The notes beneath the pieces were generated by a model, which did not search any database, was not told where the DNA came from, and saw only the letters and a list, made by a program, of their open reading frames with translations. A DNA stretch of 39,369 nt from an uncultured Clostridia bacterium. GTDB taxonomy: Bacteria > Bacillota > Clostridia > Christensenellales > Borkfalkiaceae. The stretch spans positions 1 to 39,369 of the forward strand of contig CANRFW010000003.1 of NCBI GenBank assembly GCA_947630035.1, read 5' to 3'. This document shows, in pieces, positions 13,220 to 37,234 of the stretch (its first letter is position 1; each line of letters opens with the position of its first letter). A program made the position numbers and the translations under genes.

Positions 13220-16200
13220 CTATTCATTCGGGAGCCGGCGGGAAACGGGTTGTTTGGGTTCCTCCTCGTCGGGGAGCCAGCGCAGGGTGCCGTAGAGCGT
13301 TTCGATCCTGTAATACTCGGTAACGTCCCGCCCCGTCCGATCGTAAATGCGGATATTCGAAAGGGTGTTCTCCGCCTCGTCTTCCTCGGGCATGAGGACG
13401 CCCGTCACCTCGCACCGGATAGAGTGCCCCGAAAGAAGGGAGCCGCGGGACAGCCAATAGACCTCCCCGCCCGCATCGGTCTCGGTGCCGTAGAGAGGCT
13501 CGTCGCCGCGGGTGCGGGCGATGGAGAGGGTGGCGATCTGTATCGTCCGCCTCGTCACTTTGAGGGGTTCCTCCGCCCCCTCGAAGATGAATGCGTTCCT
13601 CGCGGTATAATCGGTGACGCCGTCCGAAACGGTCCCCGAGCAAGAGCTGCGGATCGTCTCGAGAGAGACGGAGCCGGGGGCCGTGATGCTCCCGCCGAGG
13701 ATCGCATGGATCCAGCTCTTCTCCACGTCCGGCGGCTTTTTCACGACGAGGTAGTCCCTCTCGCTGTAGGTGAGCGGCTCGCCGTCGTATTCCTTGGTGA
13801 GGGTGAAGACGCGGATGATGATGGGCGTCTTCACGCGGAGTTTGCCCTCCTTCCACTCGATCTCGTAGCACTCGTTGATGATATCGCCGTCCCGGTTGCG
13901 GATGATCGCATCCAATCCCGCATTGGGGACATAGCCGACCTCGTCGTCCTTATCCGTGATATCCGTGACGGTGGTACCCGTTACCGAACGGATCGCATCG
14001 CTCGGGGCAAGTCCCCTGTCCCCCTCCGCCTGTTCATAGGTAAATGCGGTGGTGGAGTGGCCGTTGCCGTCGTACACCCACTCGCCGTCCCCCGTCGTGA
14101 TCGTGATTTTCCGCCTGTAAATGGTTGCCGTGCCGTATTCCTGCGTGATCGTAAAGTTGTTCGTGACGTCCTTCGTCCCCGCGAAGATTTGCGTCGTGAA
14201 CTCGTTACGGAAGGTCGTCGCACGCGTGTACGCGGTAAAGCGGGGCCGCACCTCGTGCCCCGCGAGGGCGGGATACCCCTCGGGATAGACGGCCTCCCAA
14301 CCCTCCTCGAAGGTGTGCGGCTCGCCGTCGTAGGTGATGCCCCCGTCCCCCGATCTCACGGTGATGGGGCGGGGAGTAATTTGAAGTGTTCCGTACTTGT
14401 ATTCGATCTTGTAGTTTGCGGCGACGTCCTCCCCCTCTTCGTCGAGGATGACGAGGGTCACATGCAACATGTTGGGGCGGGGTTCGCCGACGTCGATCAC
14501 GCGGAGCGCCGTATCGGGAACGGGTGTATAGCCCTCTACGGTCTGCCCCGTCGCGGGCGCGCCGACCTTGCAAGTCTCATTGAAGTGGTACGCCCCGTCG
14601 TACACCCACACGCCCGAGCCTGTCTCGACGGAGATGGGACGGGGGGTGACGACCAAGGTGCCGTATTCGAAGGTGACATCGTAATTTTTTGTGACGTCCG
14701 CGCCCGCGCCGTCCACGATCGTATAGGTGACGGTGAGGACGTTTTCCGTACCCTCTGTGACATTTTTGACCGACGTGGGGTCGATTTCGGTGGGCTGAAT
14801 GCTGTGCCCAGAGACAAGCCCGCCGTCCTCGCGCCCCTCGGGGGCATGGCTCGTGAAGCCCTCCTCGGTGTGGGCCTTTCCGTCGTACTGCCACTCGTTG
14901 GAGTTGGTGAGAACGACGACGGGGCGGGTGTTTATCGTGAGCGTGCCGTATTCCCAAGTGATCGTGTAGTTCTCCGTCACGTCGTTGTGCTGCTCGTCGT
15001 AGACGCGGGTATCCCCGTCCGAGGCCCTGTTCTCCTCATCACCCGCGTCGGTGCGGGAGGCGTAGACCGTCTCGACGGTATGCCCCCTCACAAGGGTATT
15101 CTCCGTCTCGATATAGCTCTGCTGTGCGTGGGGCTGTGCGTCGTACGTCCACTCCCCCGAAGCGGTGCGGAGGGTGACTGCGCGCTTTGTGACGGTGACG
15201 GTGCCGTATTCCCACGTCTTTGTGTAGTTTTCCTCCTTGACTTCGGTGCCGTCCGCGCGGAGGATGCGGATATTTTCGGGCTTGTTCACCGTCTCGCCCA
15301 CAACGGTGCGGGCGGGATAATCCGCCGCAACGCGGTGCCCCTCGATAAGTTTGGTCTCCTTCACCGCTTCGGCGGAGGGCACGGAGTGGGGCTGCGCGTC
15401 GTACTCAAAGGAATCGCTGCCCGAGAGGAGGGTGACCGAAAGGGGGGTCACCTCGAGGGTGCCGCAGCGGTACTCGATCGTGTAGTTGCGGGAGAGAGAC
15501 CTCCCCTCCCCGAGAACGCCCGCCGTGAACTCGTTTTCGAGGGTGCCGACGTCGCGGATGCGGGTGGAGGCGGTGATATCCAAGGTGTGCCCTTCGACGA
15601 GGGGATAGTAGTTCGGCTCGCCGAGGACCTCGTAACCGCGGTATTCGTGCCATGTGTCGTCGTAGAGGAAGGAGCTGCCCTTGGTCTCCACGAGGATGGG
15701 GCGGGGCGTGATCGTGAGTGTGCCGAAAGAATAGGTGATCCTGTAGTTTGCGGTGACGTCCTCCCCTCCCGCCGTCACGGTCGCCTCACAGCGGTTGGGG
15801 TATTCTCCCACGTCCGCCGAGACGGGGACGAGGAAGCGGAGGGTCACCTCGTGGCCGTCGAGCTTGGCGGCGTCGGGATATTCGGGGCGGCCATGCTCGT
15901 ACGCCCGCGCGATACCGTCGTAAATGCGGGGCGCCTCCGTCTCGGTGACAATCGTGATCGGACGGGGGGTGACGGTGAGATCGCCGTTTACATAGGTTTC
16001 GATCTTATAGTTCGCCGTGACGTTCTCTTCCCCCGCCGAGACGGTGAATTCGGAGAAGATAAAATCGTTCTTTTTCGACCCCACCCCCTTGATTTCGGGG
16101 AGAGAGGCGATCGTTCCATGAAAGGCATGCTCGCCGACGAGGTTCTCCACCGTGTAGCCGTCTTCGGTGTGGGACTGCGCGTCGTACATCCAGCTGTGCC

Positions 16201-18616
16201 CCGAAGTTGTCACCGTGAGCGGGCGCTGCAAAATGCGGAGGGTGCCGAACCGCCATGTGATCTCGTAGTTCTTCGTGACGTCGTTGCGGTTTTCGTCGTA
16301 GATCAAAGTCTCGCCCGAGGTCCTGTTCTCCTCGTCGCCCGCGTCCGTGCGGGAGGCGTAATCCGTCTCTGCGGTGTGGCCGTTTACGAGGGTGTTCTCC
16401 GCGGCGGTGTAGCTGCGCTTGGAGTGGGACCGTGCGTCGTACGTCCACGTCTCCGAGTCGGTGAGGAGGGTGACTTTGCGCTTTTCGATGGTGACGGTGC
16501 CGCTCTCCCAATGGACGGCGTAGTTTGCGGTGACGTCCTCCCCGTTGCGGTCGAGGATGCGGCAATTTGCGGGACTGTTGACGTAGGTTTCGGCGTCCGT
16601 CCACTCCGAAAAAGTCCCCTCTGCGCGGTGGCCGGGAGCGAGTGTGCCGCTCTCCTCCGTCCATGTGCGGACGGAGTGGGGGCGCGCGTCGTACTCAAAC
16701 GTGCCTGAACCTGCGCGGAGGGTGACCGCCCTCTGCGTGACGGAGAGGGTGCCGAGGGTCGGCGTTATCGTGTAGTTTTGGGAGACGTCCCGCCCGCCCC
16801 CGTCTCTCACGGTGAAGGAAAGCTCGTTGGGGATATTCCCGCAGTCGGTGATCCGGGCGACGGCGCGGGCGGTAACTACATGCCCCGCGGCGTGTTCGTA
16901 CCTCCCCTCCCCCGCGGGAAGTTCGTTGAATTCGGGATAGGTGTGCGCCGTCCCGTCGTACTCAAAGGTATACGACAGGGTCTCCACGGCGACGGTGCGC
17001 TTTTGGACGGTGACGGTGCCGTACTCCGCCTCCAAAGTGTAGTTGCGGGTGACGTCCCTCCCCGCGGCGCGGACGGTGATGCGGGGGCTGTTCGCATGCT
17101 CCCCCGCCTCGGTGAAGGAGTACGTCCCCGTAAGGAAGAGGGTGTGCCCCTCCGCAAGGGCGGTGCCCCCCGTTATCTCCACCGTCTCGGCGCCGAAGGT
17201 GTGCGCCGTGCCGTCGTAGACAAAGGTCTCCGTGCGGGTGAGAAGGGAGAGCGGGCGGGGCAGGACGGTAATGGTGCCGAAGTTTTCCTCTATCCTGTAG
17301 TTGACGGTGACGTCTTGCCCCTCCCCGTCGAAGACGGCGGTGCGGACGGTGTTGGGATAGTCCCCCACCTCCGCCGCCGAAACGTAGCCCGAGAACTCCA
17401 CGCGGTGGGCGGGGACGGGGTCGGAGGAGGTGCAGTCTTCAAAGGTGTGCGCCGTGCCGTCGTAGACGAAGGAGGGCGAGGAGGTGGTAACGGTGAGCTG
17501 CCGCCTTTCGATCTCCACCGTGCCGGGCTGCATTTCGATCTCGTAGTTGCGGGTTTTTTCGACCCCGTCCGCAAAAATCGCGACAAGGGGTGCGTTTTTG
17601 TAACTTCCCGCGGCGGTGGCGGTGAGAAGTTCCGAAAGGACGATCTCATCCCCTGCCGCAAGTTCGCCCTCCTCGAGGGTGTAGCCGCTATAGGTGTGTT
17701 CCGCCCCGTCGTAGGGGAAGGCATCGGAGGGGGTGGAGAGAACGAGCTTGCGGGGATTGACGGCAAGCTCCCCCGCCTCGAAGGTAATGTTGTAGTGAAC
17801 GGTGACGTCCTCGCCGTTCTCGTCGTAAATACGGAACTCCTCGGGGAGGTTCTTGCAGCGGCCCGCCTCGGTGAGAGCGGGGAAAGTTGCCGCAAAATCG
17901 TGCCCCTCCGCAAGCCCGTTGCCGCCGAGGACGATCTCGCGGGAGGAGTGGGGGGTGCCGTCGTATTCGAAGGAGGCATCCGCCGTCGTGACGACGAGGT
18001 TGCGGCGGACGTCCGTCACGGTGCGGGAAACAAGGTTGAAGGTGTAGGAAGAGGTGACGTTTTCCCCCTCCGCGTTGTAGACGGCGACGCCCTCCTCATC
18101 CGCTTTGACGGAGAGCCTGCCCGAAGAGACTTCCTCGAGGGTATAGGAGGTGACGGAGAGGGTATCGTCGTATTGAAGCTGCGCGGTGAAGGTGGGCTTT
18201 TCGCCGAAGACGAGGCGGTCGGTCGCCGCCTGTACGGAGACGGGGGCGGGTTCGATGCGGAAGAGGTGGGTGCCGCCGTACCGCTTGGTGCCGACGACGC
18301 TCCGCCCGAATGCGCGGCACTCGTATTCGCCCGCGGTGCGGGGCTCCTCTTCCGACCACGCCTCCGTGCCGAGAGCGCGGTACTCGAAGCCGTAGTCCCT
18401 GCCGAAGACCGTCTCCGCGGAGACGGAGATGGGCTGGCCGTAGACGAGGGTCTCGGGAACGGTCTCCGCCGTCACGCCCCCCGCAACGCCCATGAGGGCG
18501 CATGCCCCCGCAAGGAGGAGGAGAAATCCCGCCAAAAAGAGCAAGCGAAAGCGCCAGACGCGCTCGAAAGCGCGCGCCCGCTTCGCAAGTTTTTCCCGGT
18601 AGGACGTATACAGCAT
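13220..18616 (-). CDS. Giant surface protein with MBG-type repeat array
   Basis: The product is 1798 residues. GAGGAG lies 7 bases before the ATG, and the stop of the previous gene is one base away, so they are coupled. A basic N-terminus precedes one membrane helix (about 25-47); the rest should be outside the cell. From about residue 205 to 1600 it has some 17 modules of about 80 residues, each with a strand like FEYDGTAHT, a conserved GEDVTANY-type turn and a closing GTLTVTPRPI strand, the pattern of MBG domains in bacterial surface proteins. Modules with WTYDARSHS and WTYDAQPHA are nearly identical over long stretches (both contain ASRTDAGDEENR), as are their preceding modules to a lesser degree, suggesting duplication of a two-module block. 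No LPXTG sorting signal ends the protein; it stops in a Pro/Arg tail. It is probably a stalk or adhesin held by the N-terminal helix. Confidence 0.88.
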   Translation of the reverse strand: MLYTSYREKLAKRARAFERVWRFRLLFLAGFLLLLAGACALMGVAGGVTAETVPETLVYGQPISVSAETVFGRDYGFEYRALGTEAWSEEEPRTAGEYECRAFGRSVVGTKRYGGTHLFRIEPAPVSVQAATDRLVFGEKPTFTAQLQYDDTLSVTSYTLEEVSSGRLSVKADEEGVAVYNAEGENVTSSYTFNLVSRTVTDVRRNLVVTTADASFEYDGTPHSSREIVLGGNGLAEGHDFAATFPALTEAGRCKNLPEEFRIYDENGEDVTVHYNITFEAGELAVNPRKLVLSTPSDAFPYDGAEHTYSGYTLEEGELAAGDEIVLSELLTATAAGSYKNAPLVAIFADGVEKTRNYEIEMQPGTVEIERRQLTVTTSSPSFVYDGTAHTFEDCTSSDPVPAHRVEFSGYVSAAEVGDYPNTVRTAVFDGEGQDVTVNYRIEENFGTITVLPRPLSLLTRTETFVYDGTAHTFGAETVEITGGTALAEGHTLFLTGTYSFTEAGEHANSPRITVRAAGRDVTRNYTLEAEYGTVTVQKRTVAVETLSYTFEYDGTAHTYPEFNELPAGEGRYEHAAGHVVTARAVARITDCGNIPNELSFTVRDGGGRDVSQNYTITPTLGTLSVTQRAVTLRAGSGTFEYDARPHSVRTWTEESGTLAPGHRAEGTFSEWTDAETYVNSPANCRILDRNGEDVTANYAVHWESGTVTIEKRKVTLLTDSETWTYDARSHSKRSYTAAENTLVNGHTAETDYASRTDAGDEENRTSGETLIYDENRNDVTKNYEITWRFGTLRILQRPLTVTTSGHSWMYDAQSHTEDGYTVENLVGEHAFHGTIASLPEIKGVGSKKNDFIFSEFTVSAGEENVTANYKIETYVNGDLTVTPRPITIVTETEAPRIYDGIARAYEHGRPEYPDAAKLDGHEVTLRFLVPVSADVGEYPNRCEATVTAGGEDVTANYRITYSFGTLTITPRPILVETKGSSFLYDDTWHEYRGYEVLGEPNYYPLVEGHTLDITASTRIRDVGTLENEFTAGVLGEGRSLSRNYTIEYRCGTLEVTPLSVTLLSGSDSFEYDAQPHSVPSAEAVKETKLIEGHRVAADYPARTVVGETVNKPENIRILRADGTEVKEENYTKTWEYGTVTVTKRAVTLRTASGEWTYDAQPHAQQSYIETENTLVRGHTVETVYASRTDAGDEENRASDGDTRVYDEQHNDVTENYTITWEYGTLTINTRPVVVLTNSNEWQYDGKAHTEEGFTSHAPEGREDGGLVSGHSIQPTEIDPTSVKNVTEGTENVLTVTYTIVDGAGADVTKNYDVTFEYGTLVVTPRPISVETGSGVWVYDGAYHFNETCKVGAPATGQTVEGYTPVPDTALRVIDVGEPRPNMLHVTLVILDEEGEDVAANYKIEYKYGTLQITPRPITVRSGDGGITYDGEPHTFEEGWEAVYPEGYPALAGHEVRPRFTAYTRATTFRNEFTTQIFAGTKDVTNNFTITQEYGTATIYRRKITITTGDGEWVYDGNGHSTTAFTYEQAEGDRGLAPSDAIRSVTGTTVTDITDKDDEVGYVPNAGLDAIIRNRDGDIINECYEIEWKEGKLRVKTPIIIRVFTLTKEYDGEPLTYSERDYLVVKKPPDVEKSWIHAILGGSITAPGSVSLETIRSSCSGTVSDGVTDYTARNAFIFEGAEEPLKVTRRTIQIATLSIARTRGDEPLYGTETDAGGEVYWLSRGSLLSGHSIRCEVTGVLMPEEDEAENTLSNIRIYDRTGRDVTEYYRIETLYGTLRWLPDEEEPKQPVSRRLPNE

Positions 18617-18617
18617 C

Positions 18618-20042
18618 TCAATTCTCCTCGGGTCTCACTGTGAGTTTGCCCCACTCCATCCGCACGGCGTAGTAGGCGGTGACGTCCTCGCCGAGGGCGT
18701 TCACGATGCGGAAGCCGATGATCTCGTTGGACCGCCAGCCGTAGTCCGTCTGCCCCTCGCCGAAGAGGACGTCGACGATTTGATCCCCCTCCGCAAGCCC
18801 TTCGGCGGTCCACCGCATGCAGACGAGCGGGGTGCCGTCGTACGGCTTTTCCGCCGACTCCGTGCGGATGACGATCTCCCGCTTGCCGAGTTCGAGGGTG
18901 CCGAAGATCCTCTCCACGATGAAGTTCCCCGTGACGTTGTTCCCCTCCCTGTCGTACACGCGGACGGAGAAGGTGTTCGCCGTTCTGCCGACATGGGAGA
19001 GGGTGGCAAAGCCGAAGTACTCCACGCGGTACGCGGAAAGATCGATCGCGGCGGAGCGGTCGGTGACGATATGCGCCTCCTCGTATTGCAGGTCGGAAGT
19101 GTCGCCGTAGGGCGCCGTGTGCGATTCGCTCGCGCACACAAGGCGGTAGCGGTGGCAGAGGGTACACTGTAGATTTCTGTCGAATACGTGCTGCCCCGTT
19201 GCGGGGATATCCCGCTCGATCGTCTGTTTGCAGATGAGGCAGTAGTTGATCTCCACCCCCGCTTCGCTGCACGTCGCCTCCTTTTGGACGACCCACGGGA
19301 CGAGGGGGTTTACCTGATGCTCGTGTTCCCAAGGGAAGAAGCCCTCGGGGAAGATGCCGTCGGGGACGGCGTCGGGCGGGACGAGGAGCCACGGGATCCC
19401 AAGGAGGGGGAGCATTTCGGGCGGGATATTCTCCCAAGGCAGATCCTGCCACGGGAAGTCTTCGCCCAAGTCCTGCCAAGGCACCTTATCCCACGGGAAG
19501 TCTGCGGGAAGATTATCCCAAGGCATTTTATCCCAAGGGAAGTCTTCGGGGAGATCGTCCCAAGGCATTTTGTCCCAAGGGAAGTCCTCGGGGAGGTTAT
19601 CCCAAGGGACGTTCCCCCAATCGAAGTTCTCGGGCATGTTGTCCCACGGGAGGTTCTCCCACGGGAAATCTTCGGGGAGATTATCCCACGGGATCTTATC
19701 CCAATCGAAGTCGGCAGGCGCGTCTTTCCAAGGCACGTCCCCCCAAGGGAAATCGTCGGGGAGGTTATCCCAAGGGATCTTATCCCAATCGAAATCGAGG
19801 GGGAGATCGTCCCACGGGAGTTTATCCCAAGGGAAGTCCGCATAGTCCTCGAAGGGGAAGGTATCCCACGGGAAATTCTCCCAATCGAAGGACTCGAGGA
19901 GGTTTTGCCAGAACGCCTTGCGGCTGTCCTCGCTGAGGATATCGAGGTGTTTGGAGGACGCGATGAAAGAGATGCTCCCGAGCAGGATAAGCACCGCCGT
20001 TAAGAAGACACCGATAAGATAGAGAGGCCGTATCCGTTTCAT
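18618..20042 (-). CDS. Membrane-anchored protein with Trp/Pro/Asp 14-residue repeats
   Basis: The product is 474 residues; GGAGGGG precedes the ATG, 12 bases after the upstream ATPase gene. Residues 8-27 are a membrane helix. Residues 69-208 are ten head-to-tail 14-residue units of the form DFPWDKMPWDNLPE, with degenerate flanking units at 52-68 and 209-240. Trp occupies positions 4 and 9; Pro usually occupies positions 8 and 13. Then comes a Cys motif common in Firmicutes surface proteins (ATCSEAG, CLICK, DIPATGQH, CTLC; Cys258, 268, 271, 293, 296), possibly a zinc ribbon. The C-terminal third (about 305-474) is two MBG-like modules (RVYDREGNNVTGNF, KPYDGTPLV, GEDVTAYYAV), related to the array in the next gene. 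I do not recognise the Trp repeat as a known family. The likely location is the outer membrane face or wall. Confidence 0.85.
   Translation of the reverse strand: MKRIRPLYLIGVFLTAVLILLGSISFIASSKHLDILSEDSRKAFWQNLLESFDWENFPWDTFPFEDYADFPWDKLPWDDLPLDFDWDKIPWDNLPDDFPWGDVPWKDAPADFDWDKIPWDNLPEDFPWENLPWDNMPENFDWGNVPWDNLPEDFPWDKMPWDDLPEDFPWDKMPWDNLPADFPWDKVPWQDLGEDFPWQDLPWENIPPEMLPLLGIPWLLVPPDAVPDGIFPEGFFPWEHEHQVNPLVPWVVQKEATCSEAGVEINYCLICKQTIERDIPATGQHVFDRNLQCTLCHRYRLVCASESHTAPYGDTSDLQYEEAHIVTDRSAAIDLSAYRVEYFGFATLSHVGRTANTFSVRVYDREGNNVTGNFIVERIFGTLELGKREIVIRTESAEKPYDGTPLVCMRWTAEGLAEGDQIVDVLFGEGQTDYGWRSNEIIGFRIVNALGEDVTAYYAVRMEWGKLTVRPEEN
19419..19838 (-). repeat. 42-bp tandem coding repeat (ten units)
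   Basis: Ten tandem 42-base units encode the 14-residue Trp/Pro/Asp repeat. Neighbouring units are close at the DNA level, with GGGAAGTCTTCGGGGAGATC and TCCCAAGGCATTTTGTCCCA recurring on the plus strand, so the array expanded by duplication and may vary in copy number between strains. Confidence 0.9.
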
Positions 20043-20054
20043 CGCTCCCCTCCC

Positions 20055-21509
20055 CTACTTCCCGATCCGCGCAAGATAGGCGCGGCACTTGGGCATGCTC
20101 TCCTCGCCGAAGAGCGTTTCGAGATATTTGGACGCCTCGTCGAGGTCCCCCTTCCGCATGGAGAGGTCCTGATAGGCGAGTTTGCGCAAGACTTTTTTGC
20201 AGAGGATATCGTCGAGCGCCTCCAGCTCCCCGCCGCCGCAGCTCGCATAGACGGAGATATAGCTCCGTATCTGCCGCATGATGCGGTTGCCGAAGGAGAT
20301 GCGGAAGCGGTCGGCAAAGAAGGCGTCGAGCTTTGCAAGCCGCCGCTCGTTGCGCCGCGTGAGTTCGTACCCCTTCTGCGCATTCTCCGAAAGACGGTTG
20401 AATTCCGCATAGGAGACGGGGACGGACGGCACAGGCTCCGTACCCCCGAAGGGGACGGCGCGGACGTCGAGATCGACGATCATCGCACGGTCGTACACCT
20501 TATCCGAGATGGAGAAGGTGGAGTCGTCGTTGTTGGCCGTGCCGATGAACCACATGTTCTCGGGGAGTTTGATGCGCCCCTCTTTGAGACCCTTGGGGTC
20601 GTCCTCCCACTTGTCGGAGACGACTTCGAGGTACCGAAGCTCGGGATCGGGGATCTCGAGGAGGGACAGAAACTCCGCAAAGTAGTATTCGACGCGGGCG
20701 ATATTCATCTCGTCGAGGACGGTGAGATAGATCTGCCCGCTCCCGTTCGCCTCGTACATTTTACGGAGGAGAGGGGTCTCGTTGTACTTCTTGGTGAATT
20801 CGTTGTAGTAGCCGAGGAGGTCGCTCCTCTCCTTCCACATGGGTTGGACAGGGACGATGGAGGAGGAGTTGCCGAGGAATTCCCCGAACGCATAGGCGAG
20901 GGAGGTTTTGCCCGTGCCCGACATGCCCTGAAGAATGAGGATGCGGGAGACGGCAAGCCCCGCGATGAACTCGCGGATCTGCGCCTCGGTGTAGTAGAGG
21001 TGAAGATCGGCCGCCGCGAAGACGCGGAACTTTTCGCACAGTTCCGCGAGGGAGCGCACCGCCCCCTCCTTGGGCGCATCGTCTCTCGGCATCATCTCGT
21101 TGAGACGGCTGAAACGGTTCTTCTTCTCCTTCTTTGCCGCCTCCGCCGCCGCTGCCTTTCTATCCGCCCCGAGGGCGAGCTGCGCCACGTCCGCCCATGT
21201 CCTGTGATAGTAGCCGAACTGCCGCCTGCGCAGGATATTGATGACGAGGAGGATGATGAGGATGAGGGGCACCGCGAGCATCCAGAAGATGAAGAGGGTG
21301 CGGAAAAATTCGTTTTCGAAGACCACGTCCGAGATGACGGTGAGGATCTCCGCAAGTTTCCCGTTGGTGTGGAGGAGCAAAAGGAGCGCGATCAAAGACC
21401 CCCCGACCAAGAGGACGGAGACGAGAAGCAGGATGACGGAGACGGTGCGCCGCCGCGTTCTACGCTTGATCCGTGCCGCCGTCTTTTCGGCTGTCGTCAA
21501 TTCCTTCAT
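20055..21509 (-). CDS. Membrane-anchored McrB-like AAA+ ATPase (second copy)
   Basis: The product is 484 residues from ATG 21509, supported by AAGGAG 4-5 bases upstream; it overlaps the end of the coiled-coil gene by 50 bases. Two membrane helices (about 24-47 and 71-93) lie before a cytoplasmic AAA+ domain. Walker A is GMSGTGKT (Lys201), Walker B is TVLDEMN (Asp266-Glu267), and sensor 1 is FIGTANND (Asn326-Asn327); Arg341 in DRAM is an arginine-finger candidate. ERSDLLGYYNEFT and the YFAEFLSLLE helix resemble the McrB/MoxR-like group. Classical McrB is a GTPase partner of the McrC nuclease; neither a GTPase signature nor a nuclease gene is visible here. It is very similar to the ATPase at 23323-24606, with which it may form a mixed ring. 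Confidence 0.92.
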   Translation of the reverse strand: MKELTTAEKTAARIKRRTRRRTVSVILLLVSVLLVGGSLIALLLLLHTNGKLAEILTVISDVVFENEFFRTLFIFWMLAVPLILIILLVINILRRRQFGYYHRTWADVAQLALGADRKAAAAEAAKKEKKNRFSRLNEMMPRDDAPKEGAVRSLAELCEKFRVFAAADLHLYYTEAQIREFIAGLAVSRILILQGMSGTGKTSLAYAFGEFLGNSSSIVPVQPMWKERSDLLGYYNEFTKKYNETPLLRKMYEANGSGQIYLTVLDEMNIARVEYYFAEFLSLLEIPDPELRYLEVVSDKWEDDPKGLKEGRIKLPENMWFIGTANNDDSTFSISDKVYDRAMIVDLDVRAVPFGGTEPVPSVPVSYAEFNRLSENAQKGYELTRRNERRLAKLDAFFADRFRISFGNRIMRQIRSYISVYASCGGGELEALDDILCKKVLRKLAYQDLSMRKGDLDEASKYLETLFGEESMPKCRAYLARIGK

Positions 21510-23313
21510 AGCTCTCCTTGCTCTCTGCGCTTTCTTCCGTTTCTTCCGAGGCGCGCGCCCTTCTTCTCTCGGACGCGGCACTCATGGCGCCGTATTCCTT
21601 GCTCTTTTTTGCGTTCTTCTTCTGCATGACGGCGCGGAGGTTGCCGTAGAACTCCTTGCGGAGCATCTTCCTGACCCCCTCCCACTCCTCGCGCACCATT
21701 CTGCCGAGGACTTCGTATTCGTGTTCGAGGGCGTTGAATCCCTCCTCCGTCGTGAAGTCTTCCCCCGAGAGAAGCCCGTGTTCCCGCCGCAATGCCGTGA
21801 GGCGTGCCTCAAGAAGCTCCGTCTCCTTTTCGGCATGCTGCCGGTCCTTTTGCGCCGCCGCAAGCTCTTCGCGGGCGAGGGAGACTTCCTTCGCCTTTTC
21901 GGCGATCTTCTCGCGGCTCTCGCGGATGCGGGCCTCGCAGTCCGCCGTGACCCGCGCGACCTCCTCCGTGCGCAGTTTTTCGGCACGGGCGAGCGCTTCC
22001 GCATGCTGCTTTTTGAGTTCCGCCTCCGCCTCGGCGCGTTCGCGGCGCATCTCTTCGATCTTCTGCCTGTGCCGCTCTTCCGCCTCCTCCATCTCCTTTT
22101 TGAGGTTCTCGATCTGCATACTCATCTCGCCGAGTTCGAGGACGAGTTCCTCCTCTCTTGCACGGAGGTCGGCGATCGTGCGGTTCATCTCCTCTATCTC
22201 CGCCTGCGCTTCCTTCAAGAGCCTGCTGTCGAGTTCGAGGACGGCGTTGCGCTGTTCGAGGAGGATCATGTACTCCTCCATGCCGAGGCCCGTCTCCTCC
22301 ACCCGCTTTTTGAGCGCCTTGATCTTTTCGACGAGTTCGGCCTGCCGCTGTGCTTCCCGCCTCGCCTCCTCGAGTTCGAATTCCTCGCGGAGCCTCTCCT
22401 CGATGCCGAGCCCGTGTTCGAACACGAGAAAGGCGGAGAGCATGGGCGCGAGGGCGAATTCCCCCGCCACCTCTTCGGAGACGGGATCGAGACGGGTGAC
22501 GACTTCCTCCACCGTAAAGCCCTCCCCCTCATAGGCGAGAAGGTACTCATAGAGGGAGACGGCCTCCTTGAAATTCTTGTCCATGCGGAGGACGTTGGTC
22601 TTGGTTATCTTGGACTTTATCTTATCCGCCTTGGCGACTTCCGTCATGAGCGGGGTGCGCAAGAAGTGGGCAACGCTCTTTAAGATCTTCTCCATGCGGG
22701 CGATATAGGCGGCGCATTCCCCGTCCGTGGGGAAGGAGAGCGCATCGTCCTGCACGTCCGAAAGGCGGAGGGAAAAGGCGAACTTTCTCCCCTTTACGGA
22801 GACCTTCTTCTCGGAGGTAAGCTCCCCCTTATACGCCTTATAGGCGCTCGTGATCGCATCGTACCTGTATTGGACGAAATCGCGGATGCGGGTGATGAGG
22901 GCATAGAGGAAGCGGTTTTCGTACACCGCATAGTCGCTGAGCCTCTCCACCGTGTAGAGTTTATCGGGGACGATATCGTCCTCGGCCGGCTCGCGGGTGA
23001 TGAGGTCGCTGTGGCGGGAGAGGTGGACGACGGACTCGCGGGAGACGTTGCGCACCTTTTCGATGGGCTTTACCTCCCCCTCCGAGCGGATGAACTGCCT
23101 ATCCTCCCCGATGGCGTTCGCGATGAATTCGAGGCCGCGCTCGACCGCCGCCACCCACTCCTCTTCGACGTGGCAGAGATTATGGGTGACGACGGCAACG
23201 TCCCCCTCCTCCGCCTTTGCGAGCGCGGAGGCAAAAGAGAGGATCTGCCTGTCGTTTTCGAGTTCCTGTCTGAATCCGCCGAATGCGCGGTAGAGACGGT
23301 CGATCTGCGTCAT
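21460..23313 (-). CDS. Long coiled-coil protein, McrC/DUF2357-like N-terminal part
   Basis: The product is 617 residues; AAGGTGG lies 4 bases before the ATG. The N-terminal 300 residues are mostly helical and include ERLSDYAVYENRFLYALITR (YENRF at 131-135), which resembles the ENRF signature preceding the nuclease in McrC and DUF2357 proteins. That relation is tentative. Residues about 315-535 are an unbroken Glu/Lys/Arg/Ala coiled coil (for example EEAEERHRQKIEEMRRERAE). The C-terminus is polar and acidic. No PD-(D/E)XK nuclease motif, signal peptide or membrane helix is visible, so it is a cytoplasmic scaffold. Lying between two McrB-like ATPase genes, it could take the place of McrC as their partner, connecting the rings to another target. 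Confidence 0.85.
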   Translation of the reverse strand: MTQIDRLYRAFGGFRQELENDRQILSFASALAKAEEGDVAVVTHNLCHVEEEWVAAVERGLEFIANAIGEDRQFIRSEGEVKPIEKVRNVSRESVVHLSRHSDLITREPAEDDIVPDKLYTVERLSDYAVYENRFLYALITRIRDFVQYRYDAITSAYKAYKGELTSEKKVSVKGRKFAFSLRLSDVQDDALSFPTDGECAAYIARMEKILKSVAHFLRTPLMTEVAKADKIKSKITKTNVLRMDKNFKEAVSLYEYLLAYEGEGFTVEEVVTRLDPVSEEVAGEFALAPMLSAFLVFEHGLGIEERLREEFELEEARREAQRQAELVEKIKALKKRVEETGLGMEEYMILLEQRNAVLELDSRLLKEAQAEIEEMNRTIADLRAREEELVLELGEMSMQIENLKKEMEEAEERHRQKIEEMRRERAEAEAELKKQHAEALARAEKLRTEEVARVTADCEARIRESREKIAEKAKEVSLAREELAAAQKDRQHAEKETELLEARLTALRREHGLLSGEDFTTEEGFNALEHEYEVLGRMVREEWEGVRKMLRKEFYGNLRAVMQKKNAKKSKEYGAMSAASERRRARASEETEESAESKESYEGIDDSRKDGGTDQA

Positions 23314-23322
23314 GCTGCCACC

Positions 23323-24606
23323 TTATCCGTTCTTCGCGATGCGCCGCACCGTCGCAAGACACCTCTTCATCCTCTCCTCGCCGAACAGCTCGTTGAGCTT
23401 TTCGCAGAGGGCTTCGAGTTCCGCCGTGCGGTAGGTCGTGTTCTGCGTCTCGAGCTTGCGGAGGATCTTCTTCGCAAGGATATCGTCGAGCGCGTCCAGC
23501 TCCTCCCCGCCGCATGCGACGTAGACGGGAAGATAGCTCGTGATCTGCTTCATGATACGGTTGCCGAACGAAATGCGGTAGTGGGCGGCAAGATAGCCGT
23601 CGAACTCCTTGAGGAGGGCTATTGTCTCCTCCGAGACGCCGATGAGCCGCACCGCGTCCGCCGCGAGGGAGGAAAAGGTCTCCGCCTCCACGGGTACGGC
23701 GCGGAAGACGGGGGCGATGAACGGCTCGCACTTCACGTCGATATTGAGGATCATCGCACGGTCGTACACCTTATCCGAGATGGCGAACGTCGAGTCGTCG
23801 TTATTCGCCGTCCCCAAAAACCACATGTTGTCGGGAAGATGCACCCGCCCGTTTTTGAGTTCGGCGGGGTCGTCCTCCCACTTATCGGAGACGACTTCGA
23901 GGTAGCGCGCCTCCGAATTGGGAAGCTCGAGGAGGGACAAAAACTCCGCGAAGTAGTATTCGACGCGGGCGATGTTCATCTCGTCGAGAATGGTAATGTA
24001 CATATCTTTCCGCCCGTTCGCCTCGTAAATTTTTTCGAGGAGAAGGGTCTCGTTGAACCGCTTGGTGAACTCGTTGTAGTAGCCGAGAAGGTCGCTCCTC
24101 TCCTTCCACATGGGTTGGACGGGAATGACGGTGGAGGGGTTTTTCACGAATTCGCCGAACGCATAGGCGAGGGAGGTTTTGCCCGTACCCGACATACCCT
24201 GCAAAATGAGGATATGGGAGACGGAAAGCCCCGCTATGAACTCGCGGATGGTATCGATGGTGTAGTAGAGGTGCAGCTTGCCCGCGGCGAAGTTGCGGAA
24301 CTCGTCGCAGAATTCGCGCAAACTCCCCACGGGGGCGAACTCCGTCTGCGGGCGGGTGGCGCGCTCGGCGTCGATGCGGTTCAGCATGTCGAAACGCGAA
24401 CCCCCCTTTGCCTCCCGCTCCGCCTTCTCCGCCCTGTCGGCGCTGTTGCCGAGGCGGCGCGCGTACACCGAGAACTTATGCTCGTTCACCATCACCGAGA
24501 TGACGATGGCGAGCATCAAGAGGACGACGACCGCGATATAGACGACTACGAAGATGGGTTTTGTGAGGACGCTCCAGATATCCTCCAATGCTATGAGAAG
24601 GTTCAT
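23323..24606 (-). CDS. Membrane-anchored McrB-like AAA+ ATPase (first copy)
   Basis: The product is 427 residues; its ATG overlaps the stop of the GH3/AAA fusion gene (ATGA). One membrane helix (17-39) is followed by a charged stretch and a cytoplasmic AAA+ domain. Walker A is GMSGTGKT (137-144, Lys143), Walker B is TILDEMN (Asp208-Glu209), and sensor 1 is FLGTANND (Asn268-Asn269). Long blocks such as QPMWKERSDLLGYYNEFTK, ARVEYYFAEFLSLLE and YLEVVSDKWEDDP are shared with the 20055-21509 ATPase, so the two are paralogues, differing mainly in the number of membrane helices and the C-terminal helical part. It should be an active ATPase facing the cytoplasm. Its substrate is unknown. Confidence 0.92.
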   Translation of the reverse strand: MNLLIALEDIWSVLTKPIFVVVYIAVVVLLMLAIVISVMVNEHKFSVYARRLGNSADRAEKAEREAKGGSRFDMLNRIDAERATRPQTEFAPVGSLREFCDEFRNFAAGKLHLYYTIDTIREFIAGLSVSHILILQGMSGTGKTSLAYAFGEFVKNPSTVIPVQPMWKERSDLLGYYNEFTKRFNETLLLEKIYEANGRKDMYITILDEMNIARVEYYFAEFLSLLELPNSEARYLEVVSDKWEDDPAELKNGRVHLPDNMWFLGTANNDDSTFAISDKVYDRAMILNIDVKCEPFIAPVFRAVPVEAETFSSLAADAVRLIGVSEETIALLKEFDGYLAAHYRISFGNRIMKQITSYLPVYVACGGEELDALDDILAKKILRKLETQNTTYRTAELEALCEKLNELFGEERMKRCLATVRRIAKNG

Positions 24607-27600
24607 TCGTCTTCACCGCCCTTTTTCTCTTTGAGTGCTTCCTCCGTGAGACGAATGCCGTCCGTGCCGAAGATGCCGAGGAGAGCATCGTCGAGGGTCC
24701 CCCCGCACTCCTCCTCGTTCCACGTTTCGGAGAGCCACGGGAAAAGCTCGCAGGCGATCGCCTCGTCGAGGGCCTCCGTCTCCCCCGCGCCGCATGCCGC
24801 GGCAACGGAGGCGTGCAGTTCGGTGCGCACCCACAGAAGATTTCCGATATGCCCCGTGCGGCAGCGCGCGTCGAGCGCGTCCACGTTCTTCCACGCCTGT
24901 TCGCCGAGGGGATACTCGTCCCGCACCGTCTGGCGGAGGGCGGAGAACCGCTCGAAGCCCACCGTCTGCAAAATCGTCTTTTTGGCGGCGACCTCCCCGT
25001 CTTTGCACTTGGGGGAAAGCACCGCCGCGACCTCCGCGATGCCCGCGGGGAGCCGCTCCACCCGATCCTTTTCGATCTCCACGACGAGGCGGAGATTGGG
25101 CGGGAGAATGACCTGCGTGCCGTCCGGCATGACGATCGCCGTCTTCTTGCGGGCAAACACCTCCGCGACGGGCGCGAGGGCCTGCATCACGCGGACGGGG
25201 TCGGCGTGGCGGATGAGGACGGTGTGCAAAAACGCGCTCTCCCTCTTCGCCGCGGCAAGCGCCGCGCTGAACTCCGTCTGCACATAGATGCGTTCGCTCT
25301 GTCTCCAATGGGTGAAGAGATCCTCGCCGCGAGCGTAGCTCTCGCCGTTGTCGATGAACGCCCCCCTGCCGAAATACTCGGCGACCATGGAGCAGAGCGC
25401 CGCGCCGTCCCCCGCGGGGACGAGAATGAGCTGTGCGGAGACGAGGGCGGCGAGCCATGCGCGGAGGGCGCTCTCCCCCACGACAAGCCCCCGCTCCTGC
25501 GCAAAGAGCCTGCAATCGCGGAGCATCGTCGCAAAATCGAGATGACGGTCGTAAAACTGCGGGACGTCGGGGAGGGGCAGAGGCTCCTCCTCTTCGGGCT
25601 TCTTACGCTTCTCCGTGCGGACGGAGACGGAGGCGAGGCGGAATGCCTCTTCAAACTCCGTTTCGGGGGTGACGAACGCCTCGGGCTCCCGCTCGAGATA
25701 GTACTTCGCCCAGCTGTTCACCCCGCCGTCGTACTTGCGCAGCGCCCTGTCTACGATCGCCGCGACGATCGCCGCAAGGGGGGCGCCGACGGCAAAGCAG
25801 GAGATGATGCGGAGGGCGAGCCTCTCGGCGTATCCCCCGTCCTTTGCGATGAGGATGAACCCGAGGACGAAGCAGACGAACATGAGGATGGGGCAGACGA
25901 CGAGCGCCGCCGCCTTCCACCGCACGAGCCGCTTCCGGTTGAAGGTAAAGAGAAGGGGAAGAATGCCGATCACCGCCACGGCAAGGATATAGAGGAGCCA
26001 TTCCACGACGGCGGGATCGTCGATATAGAAGAACAGGGTGTAGTCGAGGGTATACGAGAACACCAGCATGGTGACGAGGAAGAAGAAGAGATAGGCGAGG
26101 GCGGGCAGGGCGAAGAGGGCGGCCTTCCGCGCCGTCTTGAGCTTTTGGGGCACCTTGCCCGTGTAGGCATTGCCGAGCCTGTGTTCCCTGCGCACGTTCT
26201 TGGCGCTCGAGAAGTCCCCGCCCGGGAAGAACTCCGCGGGGGTCTCCTCCGTCTTCTCCCGCTCCACGCCCGCGAGGTTGCGCTTCGCCCAGAGTTTTAT
26301 ATCGAGGGCGGAGGAACAGACGTAGACGCGGTACACCCCCTTCTCCACATTGTCGGAGAGGGTGCGGGGGTCGAACGTCGCATAGCTCGAAAGGGGAAGG
26401 GGTACGGTGACCCGCTTGCTCTCCCCCGGCGCGAGATACACTTTGGCAAAGCCCGCGAGCCGCTTTTTGGGGGAGACGTGGGAGACGGAGGGGGCGCCGA
26501 TATAAACCTGCGCAACCTCGCACCCCGCACGCTTGCCCGTGTTTTTCACGGTGAAAGAGACCTTGTTCGCATCGAGGGAGATCCCCGAGTAGGAGAAGGT
26601 CGTGTAGCTTAATCCGTAGCCGAAGGGATAGCGCACGCTCTCCCCCGCCGTGTCGTAGCGGAGGTAGCCGAGGAATCCCCCCACCCGCATGCGGCCCGCG
26701 TCTTTATTCGCTTTCCACACGCGGAAGTAGCCGTCCGCCCCGTCGAACGCCGTGCGGGTGAGCCTGCCCGCGGCATCCGTCTCCCCCATGAGGACGCGGG
26801 CGAGCGCCTCCGCCGCATAGGGCCCGTCTGCGGGGACGGCGAGGGTCGCATCGAGGTCGCTGTCGAAACTCATGTCCGCGGGGAGATCCCCCGCGACGAG
26901 GGCAACCACTTTCCTGCCCGTATTTTTGAGGGCATCGAGGAGGGCGAGACGGTTGGCGGGCATCGCAAGGCTCTTGCCCGTCTCCCCGAGGGTGAGGAAT
27001 ACGAGGACGACTTCCGCCTCCCCTGCCGCGCGCACCGCTTCGGGGAGGTAGGTATCGCTCCTGTCGGTTGCGGGTTCGTACCCGCGCGCCCGCCCCGCGA
27101 CCGTGAACCTCGCGCCGAACGGGGTGAGATCGGAATAGGCGTCCCCCACGATCGCGATGCGCGTGCCCGTCGCAAGCGGGAGAACGCCGCGGTTTTTGAG
27201 GAGGACGATGCACTCTTCGGCGACCCTTTGGCGGGCCTCCTCCCCCATGTCCCCCGCGGGCGTATGCTCCGCAAGGCGGAGGGCGAAGTCGGCGATCTCA
27301 TCCGCCGCCTCGTCGAGCTTGCTCTCTTCGAGCGCTCCCCCCTCGCGGACGGCGTCCTCGAGGTCACGTTCGTTGATGCTCCCCTCGTCGAGGTACCCTT
27401 TGAGCTGGCGGTACCGCATGACGGCGCGCTCCAAGGGGAGGGTTGCCCCGCCGAGGGCGACCTTTCCGCGGAGAAGGGTGAGGGAATCCGCCGTGGGCGC
27501 GACTTCCTCCGCCACCGTAAAGACGTTTCCGAAATAGCCGCTTACGGAGTCCGAGAAGAGGGCGCGGTTGGTGTTGGCATACCCCGCCTTTCCCCGCTCG

Positions 27601-28118
27601 GGGGTGAGGAAGATCGCCTCGCACGGCTCCTCCTTTACGGCGCGCAGGAAGGGGGCGGAGACGCGTTCATGCACCGTGCCGGGGTTCTCCCGCCTGTCGA
27701 GATAGGAGAGGTCCTCCCCGTCGAGGGAGAGGCGGGAAAGCCCGATCGCCCCGCCCGCCGCATGGGTCGCGCCGACGATCGCCGCCCCCATCTCGCCGCT
27801 GAAAAACGCGTCTTCCGAGAGGGCCTCTTTGTAGGGATCGATCGCAGCTTTGAGGTCGGGAGAGACGAAGAGACGCGCCCCCGCGCCGCCTGCCTCGGAG
27901 ACGAGTTCCTCCGTCATCTTGCCGACGAGTTCAAGGTTCCATGTCCGCGCGGCGCAAGGATAGGAGACCCCCCTCTTCTTCCCAAGCTCGGAAAGAGAGG
28001 CCTTGCCCGCGGCGGGCAGCCCCGCCTGCGTGAGCGCCTCGTCTTCGAGGGGAGAGGAGACGAGAGCCGTCTTCTGAAGGGGTTCCAATGCCCCGATGAT
28101 ATCGCTATGCTTCAACAT
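24603..28118 (-). CDS. GH3-like / 4-TM / degenerate McrB-like AAA fusion protein
   Basis: The product is 1171 residues. Residues 45-260 follow the GH3 barrel domain (YPCAARTWNLELVGKMTEEL, EALSEDAFFSGEMG), 295-460 the GH3 C-domain (ECIVLLKNRGVLPLATGTRI, MGETDAAGRLTRTAF) and 490-610 the GH3 fibronectin-like domain (YPFGYGLSYTTFSYSGISL). The usual SDW nucleophile region reads FTVAEEV, so hydrolysis is doubtful. Four membrane helices follow (665-690, 704-725, 734-758, 767-789). Residues 855-1171 align with the two ATPases of this operon (RLFAQERGLVVGESALRAWL; GHIGNLLWVRTELHAS; GETEALDEAI) but have lost Walker A (VPAGDGAALCS, no Lys) and Walker B (VLIRHAD). With no signal peptide and four helices, both ends are probably cytoplasmic. 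The start overlaps the previous gene by 14 bases. Confidence 0.85.
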   Translation of the reverse strand: MLKHSDIIGALEPLQKTALVSSPLEDEALTQAGLPAAGKASLSELGKKRGVSYPCAARTWNLELVGKMTEELVSEAGGAGARLFVSPDLKAAIDPYKEALSEDAFFSGEMGAAIVGATHAAGGAIGLSRLSLDGEDLSYLDRRENPGTVHERVSAPFLRAVKEEPCEAIFLTPERGKAGYANTNRALFSDSVSGYFGNVFTVAEEVAPTADSLTLLRGKVALGGATLPLERAVMRYRQLKGYLDEGSINERDLEDAVREGGALEESKLDEAADEIADFALRLAEHTPAGDMGEEARQRVAEECIVLLKNRGVLPLATGTRIAIVGDAYSDLTPFGARFTVAGRARGYEPATDRSDTYLPEAVRAAGEAEVVLVFLTLGETGKSLAMPANRLALLDALKNTGRKVVALVAGDLPADMSFDSDLDATLAVPADGPYAAEALARVLMGETDAAGRLTRTAFDGADGYFRVWKANKDAGRMRVGGFLGYLRYDTAGESVRYPFGYGLSYTTFSYSGISLDANKVSFTVKNTGKRAGCEVAQVYIGAPSVSHVSPKKRLAGFAKVYLAPGESKRVTVPLPLSSYATFDPRTLSDNVEKGVYRVYVCSSALDIKLWAKRNLAGVEREKTEETPAEFFPGGDFSSAKNVRREHRLGNAYTGKVPQKLKTARKAALFALPALAYLFFFLVTMLVFSYTLDYTLFFYIDDPAVVEWLLYILAVAVIGILPLLFTFNRKRLVRWKAAALVVCPILMFVCFVLGFILIAKDGGYAERLALRIISCFAVGAPLAAIVAAIVDRALRKYDGGVNSWAKYYLEREPEAFVTPETEFEEAFRLASVSVRTEKRKKPEEEEPLPLPDVPQFYDRHLDFATMLRDCRLFAQERGLVVGESALRAWLAALVSAQLILVPAGDGAALCSMVAEYFGRGAFIDNGESYARGEDLFTHWRQSERIYVQTEFSAALAAAKRESAFLHTVLIRHADPVRVMQALAPVAEVFARKKTAIVMPDGTQVILPPNLRLVVEIEKDRVERLPAGIAEVAAVLSPKCKDGEVAAKKTILQTVGFERFSALRQTVRDEYPLGEQAWKNVDALDARCRTGHIGNLLWVRTELHASVAAACGAGETEALDEAIACELFPWLSETWNEEECGGTLDDALLGIFGTDGIRLTEEALKEKKGGEDE

Positions 28119-28680
28119 AAGTCGCTACGCTCCCTTCCGCCGCGGCCTCGCGCGGCTGCGCCTGTTTGAAAAATCCGAACCGCCATGCAAGCCCCATCGC
28201 AAGGAGGGCGAACCCGAGCAAAAGCCCGAAGGCGGCGAGAATATACTTATCCGATTTTTTGGAGACGGAGTGGGTGGACTTGTGGCGGAATCCCACCTCC
28301 TTCCCCCTCTCGCGTGCGCCGTAACGGAGGGTGACGCTCTCATCCTCGAACACATACTCATAACTGCCCGAAAGAACGGACTCCATCCGCGCCTCGACCG
28401 CTACGCAGTTGCGGTTTACCGTGACGTCCGCCACGGCGAACTCCCCGCCCCGTTCGGCGGCAAGCCCGTTCCGCTCCAAGGGACGGACGGCAAGCTCGTT
28501 GCCCTTCTCGTCCTTTTCCACGAGATAGAACCGCACCCCCGAGATCTCGATCTCGCTGGCGTTGAAAAAGTGGAGGGCGACCCGCTTCTTCGCGTTCCCG
28601 AAGATGACGTAACGGGACAAAAAGACGGGAAATCCCCCGGGATAGGGCAGTTTTGCCGCAATGGGATTGAATTCAGGCAT
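28105..28680 (-). CDS. Unknown protein with one C-terminal membrane helix
   Basis: The product is 191 residues and I do not recognise a family. Residues 1-130 look like a beta-rich cytoplasmic domain (FPVFLSRYVIFGN, RVALHFFNASEIEISGVRFY, VADVTVNRNCVAVEARME). Residues 146-168 form a single hydrophobic helix (YILAAFGLLLGFALLAMGLAW) followed by a short tail. There is no N-terminal signal, which suggests a tail-anchored protein with its domain in the cytoplasm, near the AAA+ proteins encoded downstream. The start overlaps the previous gene by 8 bases and the end overlaps the GH3/AAA fusion gene by 14 bases, so it is translated as part of the operon. Confidence 0.8.
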   Translation of the reverse strand: MPEFNPIAAKLPYPGGFPVFLSRYVIFGNAKKRVALHFFNASEIEISGVRFYLVEKDEKGNELAVRPLERNGLAAERGGEFAVADVTVNRNCVAVEARMESVLSGSYEYVFEDESVTLRYGARERGKEVGFRHKSTHSVSKKSDKYILAAFGLLLGFALLAMGLAWRFGFFKQAQPREAAAEGSVATYVEA

Positions 28681-29374
28681 CGTGAGGGTCCCCCTTTCTG
28701 CGCATCAAAAAGAACCGCGCAAGCGAAAAGGCGCAGGTGACGGCGATCACCGCGAGCGCGGTCGAACCGAGGAGAGCCGCCCACATCCACAGGGGCGGCG
28801 AATAGGTGAAGGTGAACCCGTCCATACAGCGGAACACGAACATGGAGACGAGCCACACGAGGAGGTCCACCGTGACGGCGAGGGAGAAGCAGAGCGCGGC
28901 AAGCCACGCGCAGTACCGCCCGTTGAGCTTTTTCCGCTCGACGGGGAAGGGGGTATCGTCCACATAGCAGAGGCGCAGGGTGATAAAGTCCGCCTTCTTC
29001 GGGAGCCGCGTGACGCGGGTCAGCCGCCCGCCGTTGAACTTCTCCTTCACGCGAAGCACCTCGATGAGTTCGTTGCCCGCGCCGTACACGACGAGTTCAT
29101 ACACCGCGCAGGCGATCTTTCTCGCCCACTCTCCCTGAAAATAGGCGCCGTTTGCGTCACGGCCGATGCGATACCATGTGATATAGCGGCGGACGGCGGC
29201 GGTGGGCTCGTAGTAGAGGGCCGCGCCGAGACTGTCCGCCCCGCGGCCGATCGCCCTGTCGCGGATGGGCAGGGTCGCCGCGTGCGTCCTCATCATGATC
29301 CGCGGGAGGAAGAAGCACGCGAACAAGATCACGATGCCGATCCCCAGCAAAAACCATATAATCCAAAATACCAT
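28673..29374 (-). CDS. Unknown 3-TM membrane protein, first gene of the AAA operon
   Basis: The product is 233 residues with no recognised family. Membrane helices lie at about 3-24, 155-181 and 194-222. The segment between the first two (about 25-150) contains Tyr-rich and basic stretches (RRYITWYRIGRDANGAYFQG, KKADFITLRLCYVDD) and could fold as a small soluble domain. The ATG at 29374 lies only 7 bases after a TATAAT box, so the message is probably leaderless; the next in-frame Met (residues 27-28) would remove the first helix. It heads the eight-gene operon that continues to 13220. Confidence 0.78.
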   Translation of the reverse strand: MVFWIIWFLLGIGIVILFACFFLPRIMMRTHAATLPIRDRAIGRGADSLGAALYYEPTAAVRRYITWYRIGRDANGAYFQGEWARKIACAVYELVVYGAGNELIEVLRVKEKFNGGRLTRVTRLPKKADFITLRLCYVDDTPFPVERKKLNGRYCAWLAALCFSLAVTVDLLVWLVSMFVFRCMDGFTFTYSPPLWMWAALLGSTALAVIAVTCAFSLARFFLMRRKGDPHDA

Positions 29375-35340: not shown

Positions 35341-35372
35341 GTAAAAAACAACAGTGCGGACGCTGCTGTGTC

Positions 35373-35447: not shown

Positions 35448-35470
35448 ATAATGAGCTTTCCGCACTGTTA

Positions 35471-37202: not shown

Positions 37203-37234
37203 CGGCAGCTCGGTTCCCGGAAACAGAACGAAAG

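Follow-up and report, generated by a model that had tools for sequence, protein, structure and literature searches.

What might McrB-type motors do when they are anchored in a membrane and encoded next to giant surface proteins? This question is raised by an eight-gene operon (g1 to g8) in contig CANRFW010000003.1 of assembly GCA_947630035.1, from an uncultured Clostridia bacterium of the Borkfalkiaceae. The stretch analysed (39,369 nucleotides, hereafter the window) is one whole contig of a draft genome of 1.69 Mb that is 75.7% complete. McrBC is known as a restriction enzyme. The operon is best read from its sequence as encoding a derivative of the McrBC NTPase that is anchored in the membrane and lacks the nuclease, and the gene set to which it belongs is well supported as conserved and real. 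An earlier note, made from the letters of the window alone, had proposed a membrane AAA+ machine for the downstream surface proteins. The evidence favours this proposal, and the order of the genes is conserved; the McrC-like partner and the pseudo-glycosidase described below had been missed.

Motor proteins, McrC-like partner and pseudo-enzyme

Two intact McrB-type AAA+ proteins are encoded by g4 and g6. Both match AAA_5 of Pfam above its cut-off of 22 (25.2 bits for g4, 31.9 bits for g6), and a profile of 22 relatives found E. coli McrB chains as the best solved relatives of the AAA part (E 3.6e-4, 9.1e-4 and 9.5e-4). E. coli McrB aligns to the profile of g4/g6 relatives without a gap across the N/D signature. 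Among the McrB open reading frames (ORFs) of the window and its relatives, the Walker A motif is intact in 135 of 135, LDE[LMI]N in 133 and NNDD in 134. Transmembrane (TM) segments and a linker lie N-terminal to the AAA domain in g4 and g6, in which neither a DNA-binding specificity domain nor any other Pfam domain above cut-off was found. The AAA_5 matches and the motif alignment bear out the three homologous McrB-like AAA+ domains of the earlier note, two intact and one decayed (in g3), and hydropathy segments in g3, g4 and g6 agree with its attachment of all three proteins to the membrane. Across the proteins of the window, hydropathy gave three membrane segments for g1, one for g2, four for g3 (before the AAA part), one or two for g4, two for g6, one each for g7 and g8 and none for g5.

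The gene between the two motors, g5, had been noted as a coiled coil between ATPase genes; the coiled coil and its position hold, and there is more to it, a McrC-like DUF2357 region having gone unnoticed. Against DUF2357 (PF09823) g5 scores 21.3 bits (E 1.7e-4), below the cut-off of 23.3, and 30 of 51 g5 family members match this family at E 1e-3 or better (best 8e-8). When g5 was aligned by hhalign to a McrC homologue from a CoCoPALM-like locus (a class treated in the last section), a protein itself above the DUF2357 cut-off, the probability was 99.5 over residues 1-289. In the AlphaFold2 (AF2) model of g5 (mean pLDDT 77, pTM 0.48), a helical N-terminal part with hairpins is followed by a 167-residue helix (345-511), and the profile of g5 matches mostly coiled-coil proteins. 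The matches listed for 51 g5 relatives at E 1e-3 fall in 11 families, and none of these is a nuclease, PD-(D/E)xK included. By sequence this protein is McrC-like, with a DUF2357 activator domain and a long coiled coil in place of the McrC nuclease.

The third AAA protein, g3, had been called a pseudo-ATPase fusion. Its decayed McrB-like AAA domain stands; the GH3 identity of its N-terminal half had been missed. A profile search with the GH3 part matched solved GH3 enzymes to E 5.4e-119. The column of the GH3 nucleophile holds D in nine and E in 29 of 61 proteins, and the KHF motif keeps its His in two of 61. The four hydrophobic peaks of the window copy fall within residues 664-785, and a crude hydropathy scan of its relatives gave one to five peaks. 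Both ends of g3 are probably cytoplasmic, because positive residues flank the inner side of the membrane segments. Among 66 pseudo-AAA proteins the Walker B aspartate column holds D in five and the glutamate column E in three; Walker A and sensor 1 are likewise decayed, and the GN(R/K) site is kept, with N in 64 of 66. Judging by its sequence, g3 is a GH3 glycosidase without its catalytic motif, to which four membrane helices connect a dead AAA of McrB type. Two relatives (L123:6213-7598 and L125:5498-7462) encode a pseudo-AAA with hydrophobic segments and without GH3, that of L125 beginning with CxxC pairs; GH3 is therefore not strictly part of the gene set. A separate GH3 gene, with KHF and an intact-looking nucleophile motif ISDY, lies upstream of the operon in another relative (L042:17827-19998).

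Conservation, gene conversion and surface proteins

Scanning 84,980 species genomes for the pattern gave 153 confirmed relatives, of which the 80 best were fetched (L058-L137). These are mostly metagenome-assembled genomes (MAGs) of gut Clostridia, from 'Lapin' bins (presumably rabbit), chicken and ruminants; Candidatus Gallimonas, Borkfalkia and Anaerocaecibacter muris are named hosts, and a few are labelled Anaeroplasma, Acholeplasmatales or Bacillales. Gene order was compared in the 49 loci, the window among them, whose flanks reach 7.4 kb or more upstream and 6 kb or more downstream of the McrC gene. The core order g3-McrB-McrC-McrB-MBG-MBG is exact in 42 of them, called genes are co-directional in all 49 (the separate upstream GH3 gene being left out of this test) and at least two MBG-type surface genes are present in 47. 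Deviating loci comprise one with a third MBG protein, L083 and L088 (no MBG calls), L104 and L114 (no upstream McrB) and L123 and L125 (pseudo-AAA without GH3). The shared core order far exceeds chance. The core of the eight-gene neighbourhood of the earlier note is kept among relatives and, because gene order is conserved, its homologues are not a scatter of separate genes.

Within the family, g5 matches 34 of 151 genomes at E 1e-3. Fourteen of these hold window-type relatives (G072 being divergent and G035 lying on a 3.1-kb contig); in the remainder the match lies chiefly in the DUF2357 part, and seven loci of this DUF2357-only kind (L051-L057) were fetched. The pseudo-AAA was found at E <1e-50 in 13 of 297 order genomes, belonging to three families, and at E 1e-5 in 77 of 297, where weaker scores overlap those of intact McrBs. 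At E 1e-38 it was found in three of 391 class genomes, two of them of the same genus, and in one of 398 phylum genomes, the window's own. This sparse occurrence across family, order, class and phylum genomes makes it an accessory, patchy system.

In 26 of 63 pairs of McrB genes flanking the McrC gene, the two AAA parts of the locus (~324 residues) share 98-100% identity. In these homogenised pairs, DNA identity is 92.5-100% over ~1.1 kb, from near the start of the AAA part to the stop codon or up to ~110 nucleotides (nt) beyond. All 26 are sisters in the McrB tree (support of the deepest ingroup node 0.44 only), while pairs of the window clade are 57-65% identical and split into upstream and downstream clades. 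The membrane modules of the 26 homogenised pairs find their best match at the same position in another locus in 44 of 52 cases, at the opposite position in one and in their own partner in seven. The simplest reading would be repeated homogenisation of the motor, each copy retaining its own membrane module; recurrent gene conversion and interchangeable motor subunits are suggested because the cores are identical while the membrane modules are position-specific. Homogenised motors would suit a single ring of mixed subunits that receives two membrane inputs. At 5071-6399 of L150 (G116:C12:19000-33000), a single McrB with an upstream-type membrane module lies directly before g7, without McrC; this arrangement is what recombination between the direct repeats of mcrB would be expected to yield, or it could reflect a shortcut in the assembly.

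The two downstream genes encode surface proteins, as had been described, each with repeats and one TM segment; the MBG modules attributed to them found no Pfam match in g8 at E 0.1. In g8, AgI_II_C2 scores 45.7 bits, above cut-off, and YDG 20.3 bits, below cut-off. Residues 58-237 of g7 contain 19 PW[DGQKE] sites, arranged in short DFPWDxLPWD-type repeats. Both tyrosines of the YxxY motif in the g8 tail are kept in 58 of 58 aligned proteins (window included). A transglutaminase domain is present in the g7 position-equivalents of 22 of 62 loci, about a third, and in the g8 of six loci, the latter count being a minimum, since only 22 g8 ORFs end within their locus and many others extend past its edge. 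The match in L046 is to PF01841 (E 3.5e-20), and the context of the active cysteine (GICQHYASAATL-like) is kept in most of the transglutaminase domains. At the expected g7 position, L083:12515-19731 and L088:12527-19755 encode proteins of ~2400 residues with several transglutaminase-like domains.

A hidden Markov model of the g8 tail and membrane segment, run on the 151 family genomes, matched 22 at E 1e-10 or better (27 at 1e-3, five weak ones being dropped). The McrC-like gene is present in 14 of the 22, and the other eight all have a pseudo-AAA match: in seven it reaches E 1.5e-38 or better in frames of >1000 aa, and in G120 it is ambiguous (E 1.8e-33, 867-aa frame). No McrC was found in these eight in a search that had no positive control. 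The contigs of G131, G067, G041 and G064 end in or beside a McrB gene, as would follow because short-read assembly breaks at identical repeats.

ORF analysis reproduced the eight minus-strand genes of the earlier note, co-directional over 29374-13220, together with their overlaps and gaps. Overlaps are of 8 nt (g1/g2), 14 nt (g2/g3), 4 nt (g3/g4, ATGA) and 50 nt (g5/g6, with the g6 start at ATG 21509; 122 from the GTG at 21581); gaps are of 9 nt (g4/g5), 12 nt (g6/g7) and 1 nt (g7/g8). Its one strong promoter was recovered before g1 as a full sigma-70 match with TG (Table 1), where 0.3 promoter-like sites would be expected at the scan threshold. The -35 hexamer begins 37 nt 5' of the g1 ATG. 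Among 40 loci with a called g1, 14 (window included) have a promoter-like site 35-38 nt upstream of the first codon, and 26 have a match anywhere in the scanned stretch. The g1 mRNA is likely leaderless, transcription starting at about the start codon, because of this position of the -35 box and the recurrence of the spacing in relatives. Pfam gave no match to g1. In loci with g3 and >1.5 kb upstream, g1 is present in 40 of 60 and g2 in 43 of 60. In five fetched relatives g2 exceeds 1000 aa, and the one long form tested (L046) is of the BspA-type LRR_5 (E 1.5e-104).

Directly upstream of the operon, on the same strand (window 29584-30339), lies a gene for what we take to be a CPBP/CAAX-protease-like membrane protein. 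GC content drops from ~60% to 45% toward the contig end (window 36000-39369), adjoining three tRNA genes at 35266-35546.

Table 1. Coordinates of the operon and its features in the window
Feature	Position	Strand	Description
Promoter	29382..29411	-	TTGACA-18-TG.TATAAT; sigma-70 consensus with extended -10, 12/12 match
g1	28673..29374	-	233 aa; three hydrophobic segments
g2	28105..28680	-	191 aa; N-terminal domain, one TM near C-terminus
g3	24603..28118	-	1171 aa; pseudo-GH3, four TM, pseudo-McrB AAA
g3 residues 1-640, GH3-like part	26199..28118	-	PF01915 4.4e-21, PF14310 2.1e-18; catalytic SDW motif lost
g3 residues 845-1171, decayed AAA domain	24603..25586	-	Alignment to McrB AAA
g4	23323..24606	-	427 aa; N-terminal TM, then intact McrB-type AAA (GMSGTGKT, LDEMN, NNDD)
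g5	21460..23313	-	617 aa; McrC-like, DUF2357 region then coiled coil
g6	20055..21509	-	484 aa; two TM, then intact McrB-type AAA
g7	18618..20042	-	474 aa; N-terminal TM, PW-rich repeats, one YDG-like module
g8	13220..18616	-	1798 aa surface protein; 18 YDx repeat sites, N-terminal TM
g8 cytoplasmic tail, first 24 residues	18545..18616	-	YxxYxxK

Proposed mechanism and alternatives

It is proposed, with a probability of about 0.5, that a mixed AAA ring beneath the membrane is stimulated by the McrC-like g5, modulated by the dead g3 and acts on the cytoplasmic ends of the surface proteins. The ring would be formed by the AAA domains of g4, g6 and g3; the DUF2357 part of g5 would enter and stimulate it, as McrC does with McrB, and the dead g3 subunit would close or bias it, while the pseudo-GH3 may sense a cytoplasmic ligand or serve as a scaffold. 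The ring could then take hold of g8 and g7 by their conserved cytoplasmic tails and would use the energy of the NTP to insert, release, cluster or activate the surface proteins, a handling that may in some relatives be combined with transglutaminase chemistry. In this it would resemble those MoxR-type chaperone operons in which a transglutaminase and a surface repeat protein are also encoded, its own motor being McrB/McrC. A more detailed version is offered tentatively, as falling short of an even chance, in which the machine would be one more type derived from McrBC: in a mixed ring, two interchangeable live McrB motors and one dead, with their own membrane modules, a McrC-type stalk as switch and a pseudo-glycosidase as gate would mechanically handle the tails of the surface proteins and target neither DNA nor RNA, gene conversion keeping the motors identical so that they can mix.

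Several observations weigh against such a machine. The McrB pair of the window is 64% identical and not homogenised, its g7 and g8 gave no transglutaminase match, and L104 and L114 hold a single McrB. L083 and L088 lack the MBG label and have transglutaminase-like proteins in place, and G116 reads as McrC-less, a McrB with the upstream-type module being joined directly to g7. Conservation of the g8 tail exceeds that of the first 300 residues after the TM segment only modestly: mean identity is 0.37 against 0.31, and of 1653 pairs 1001 are more alike in the tail. No clear structural match to McrC came from the AF2 models of g5, and the McrC kinship of g5 rests on sequence because the structure comparison gave no decision. 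Three secreted proteins tested from L056, one of the DUF2357-only loci, had no Pfam match. The surface proteins may also be regulated partners, not substrates.

Other functions were weighed with the help of the flanks, sampled as 91 ORFs (78 upstream and 13 downstream), of whose 94 Pfam families the 25 commonest were considered. No family occurs in more than four of these ORFs. Those seen in at least two (oxidoreductases, ferritin, amidase, phosphatase, MreB and similar) include neither a nuclease nor a known defence family, and PADLOC models at E 1e-10 each match one ORF only. Pseudo-enzymes are typical of sensing or regulation, and the two in g3 (GH3 and AAA) would suit an outside-in sensor in which the surface proteins act as receptors for glycans or contact, the McrBC-like ring is a signalling motor for a cytoplasmic response and the pseudo-GH3 senses a ligand. 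The membrane segments, the conserved N-terminal cytoplasmic tail of g8 and the lack of a dedicated secretion gene in the operon agree with this. However, the conserved set holds no output gene (kinase, regulator or effector), and none occurs in more than three of the 91 flanking ORFs (HTH_3 in three), so that a sensor appears unlikely. The earlier note's alternative, a membrane-linked defence without a nuclease, is less probable still and is rated as decidedly unlikely. Here, an anti-phage or abortive system derived from McrBC would respond to infection with a ring that harms the membrane or blocks adsorption via the surface layer. Its McrB/McrC ancestry and its patchy occurrence (g8 tail in 22 of 151 family genomes) would be in keeping with this, and the PADLOC candidate model PDC-M26A matches g4 (4.6e-45) and g6 (9.1e-53), the best stretch covering ~115 of 724 model positions, which speaks against dismissal. 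As PDC-M26A also matches both CoCoPALM-like McrBs tested, this label probably stems from McrB homology. Neither the 51 g5 relatives (E 1e-3) nor the 91 flanking ORFs gave a nuclease family or a recurrent nuclease, respectively, whereas for CoCoNuTs without the McrC nuclease, another nuclease is said always to be adjacent in the relevant part of PMC11090510. Highly improbable is a cell-wall or division machine, whose ring would act on the envelope with the surface proteins as passengers of a shared promoter. The FtsB-like domain ascribed to CoCoPALM McrBs in the paragraph that names them (PMC11090510) would favour it, but the g5 match is absent from 12 of the 19 same-genus genomes listed, an accessory distribution that makes an essential envelope function unlikely, and the surface genes remain with the core in 47 of 49 loci. 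For gut Clostridia (some of the MAGs being labelled Bacilli), the gene set offers a candidate, open to test, for a way of controlling giant surface proteins that is driven by energy.

Relation to known systems

With McrBC type IV restriction the gene set shares the McrB AAA+ motor with its N/D signature and the DUF2357 domain of McrC. It differs in having membrane helices where McrB has a DNA-binding domain, in that no PD-(D/E)xK nuclease was detected on the McrC homologue, and in the dead third AAA and the surface proteins of the operon. CoCoNuTs, in the sections of PMC11090510 that treat them, are similar in their nuclease-less McrC homologue and coiled coils; here the coiled coil is on the McrC homologue, and no HEPN or other nuclease is found in the conserved set.

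The earlier note had recognised no described system. The literature searched held no description of the gene set as a whole; a related class, CoCoPALM, had however already been named, in one paragraph that announces a fuller paper (eLife 2024, PMC11090510). As far as that paragraph goes, its McrBs are fused to an FtsB-like domain, and the likenesses are a McrB NTPase on transmembrane helices, as in g4 and g6 (a likeness of TM segments, not FtsB homology), a coiled coil on the McrC homologue, as in g5 (helix 345-511 of the AF2 model), and genes linked to cell-surface structures. The NxD signature variant that it reports for CoCoPALM can be compared with NNDD here, which is readable as NxD plus D or as NxxD. 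The seven loci L051-L057, from the same family as the window, fit this class. Each encodes one membrane McrB and a DUF2357 protein, and the seven McrBs are ~42-49% identical to g4/g6 in the AAA part, the motif GTANNDDST being common to g4/g6 and five of the seven. In these loci an S26 model, itself built from the seven, also labels genes, one of which, in L056, is above the Pfam Peptidase_S26 cut-off. Adjoining the S26 genes are genes for short secreted proteins in which the signal peptide is followed by an AWF/AWY motif; judged by eye, we take this motif to be that of TasA/camelysin proteins. A GGDEF/EAL protein (Pfam) lies near in L056, and EAL-like ones were seen by eye only in L055 and L057. 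No S26 signal peptidase was labelled in the window or its 80 relatives, where the only match of the S26 model at E 1e-3 is weak (17.7 bits) and lies inside a McrB ORF. Against the signal peptidases of CoCoPALM as outlined in PMC11090510, there is here usually a second McrB, a GH3-pseudoAAA protein and surface proteins of YDG/MBG type.

The nearest functional analogue, with a different motor, would be the Bifidobacterium PFNA operon, listed in the part of PMC8430577 consulted as pkb2, fn3, aaa-atp (MoxR), duf58 and tgm. On that account both combine a related AAA+ ATPase, a surface repeat protein and a transglutaminase, the last only in some relatives here and without a match in the window itself. 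MoxR and DUF58 there contrast with McrB and DUF2357 here, no kinase is encoded here, and neither DUF58 nor VWA matched in the operon at E 0.1.

In the literature searched, no description was found of this gene set, a variant form of the membrane McrBC systems. Together with CoCoPALM it indicates that the McrBC motor and its activator have been relocated to the membrane, where they became linked with proteins of the cell surface. To this picture the set contributes a pseudo-ATPase, a pseudo-glycosidase and gene conversion that has recurred between the motor genes. McrB matches alone should not, on this comparison, be counted as defence.

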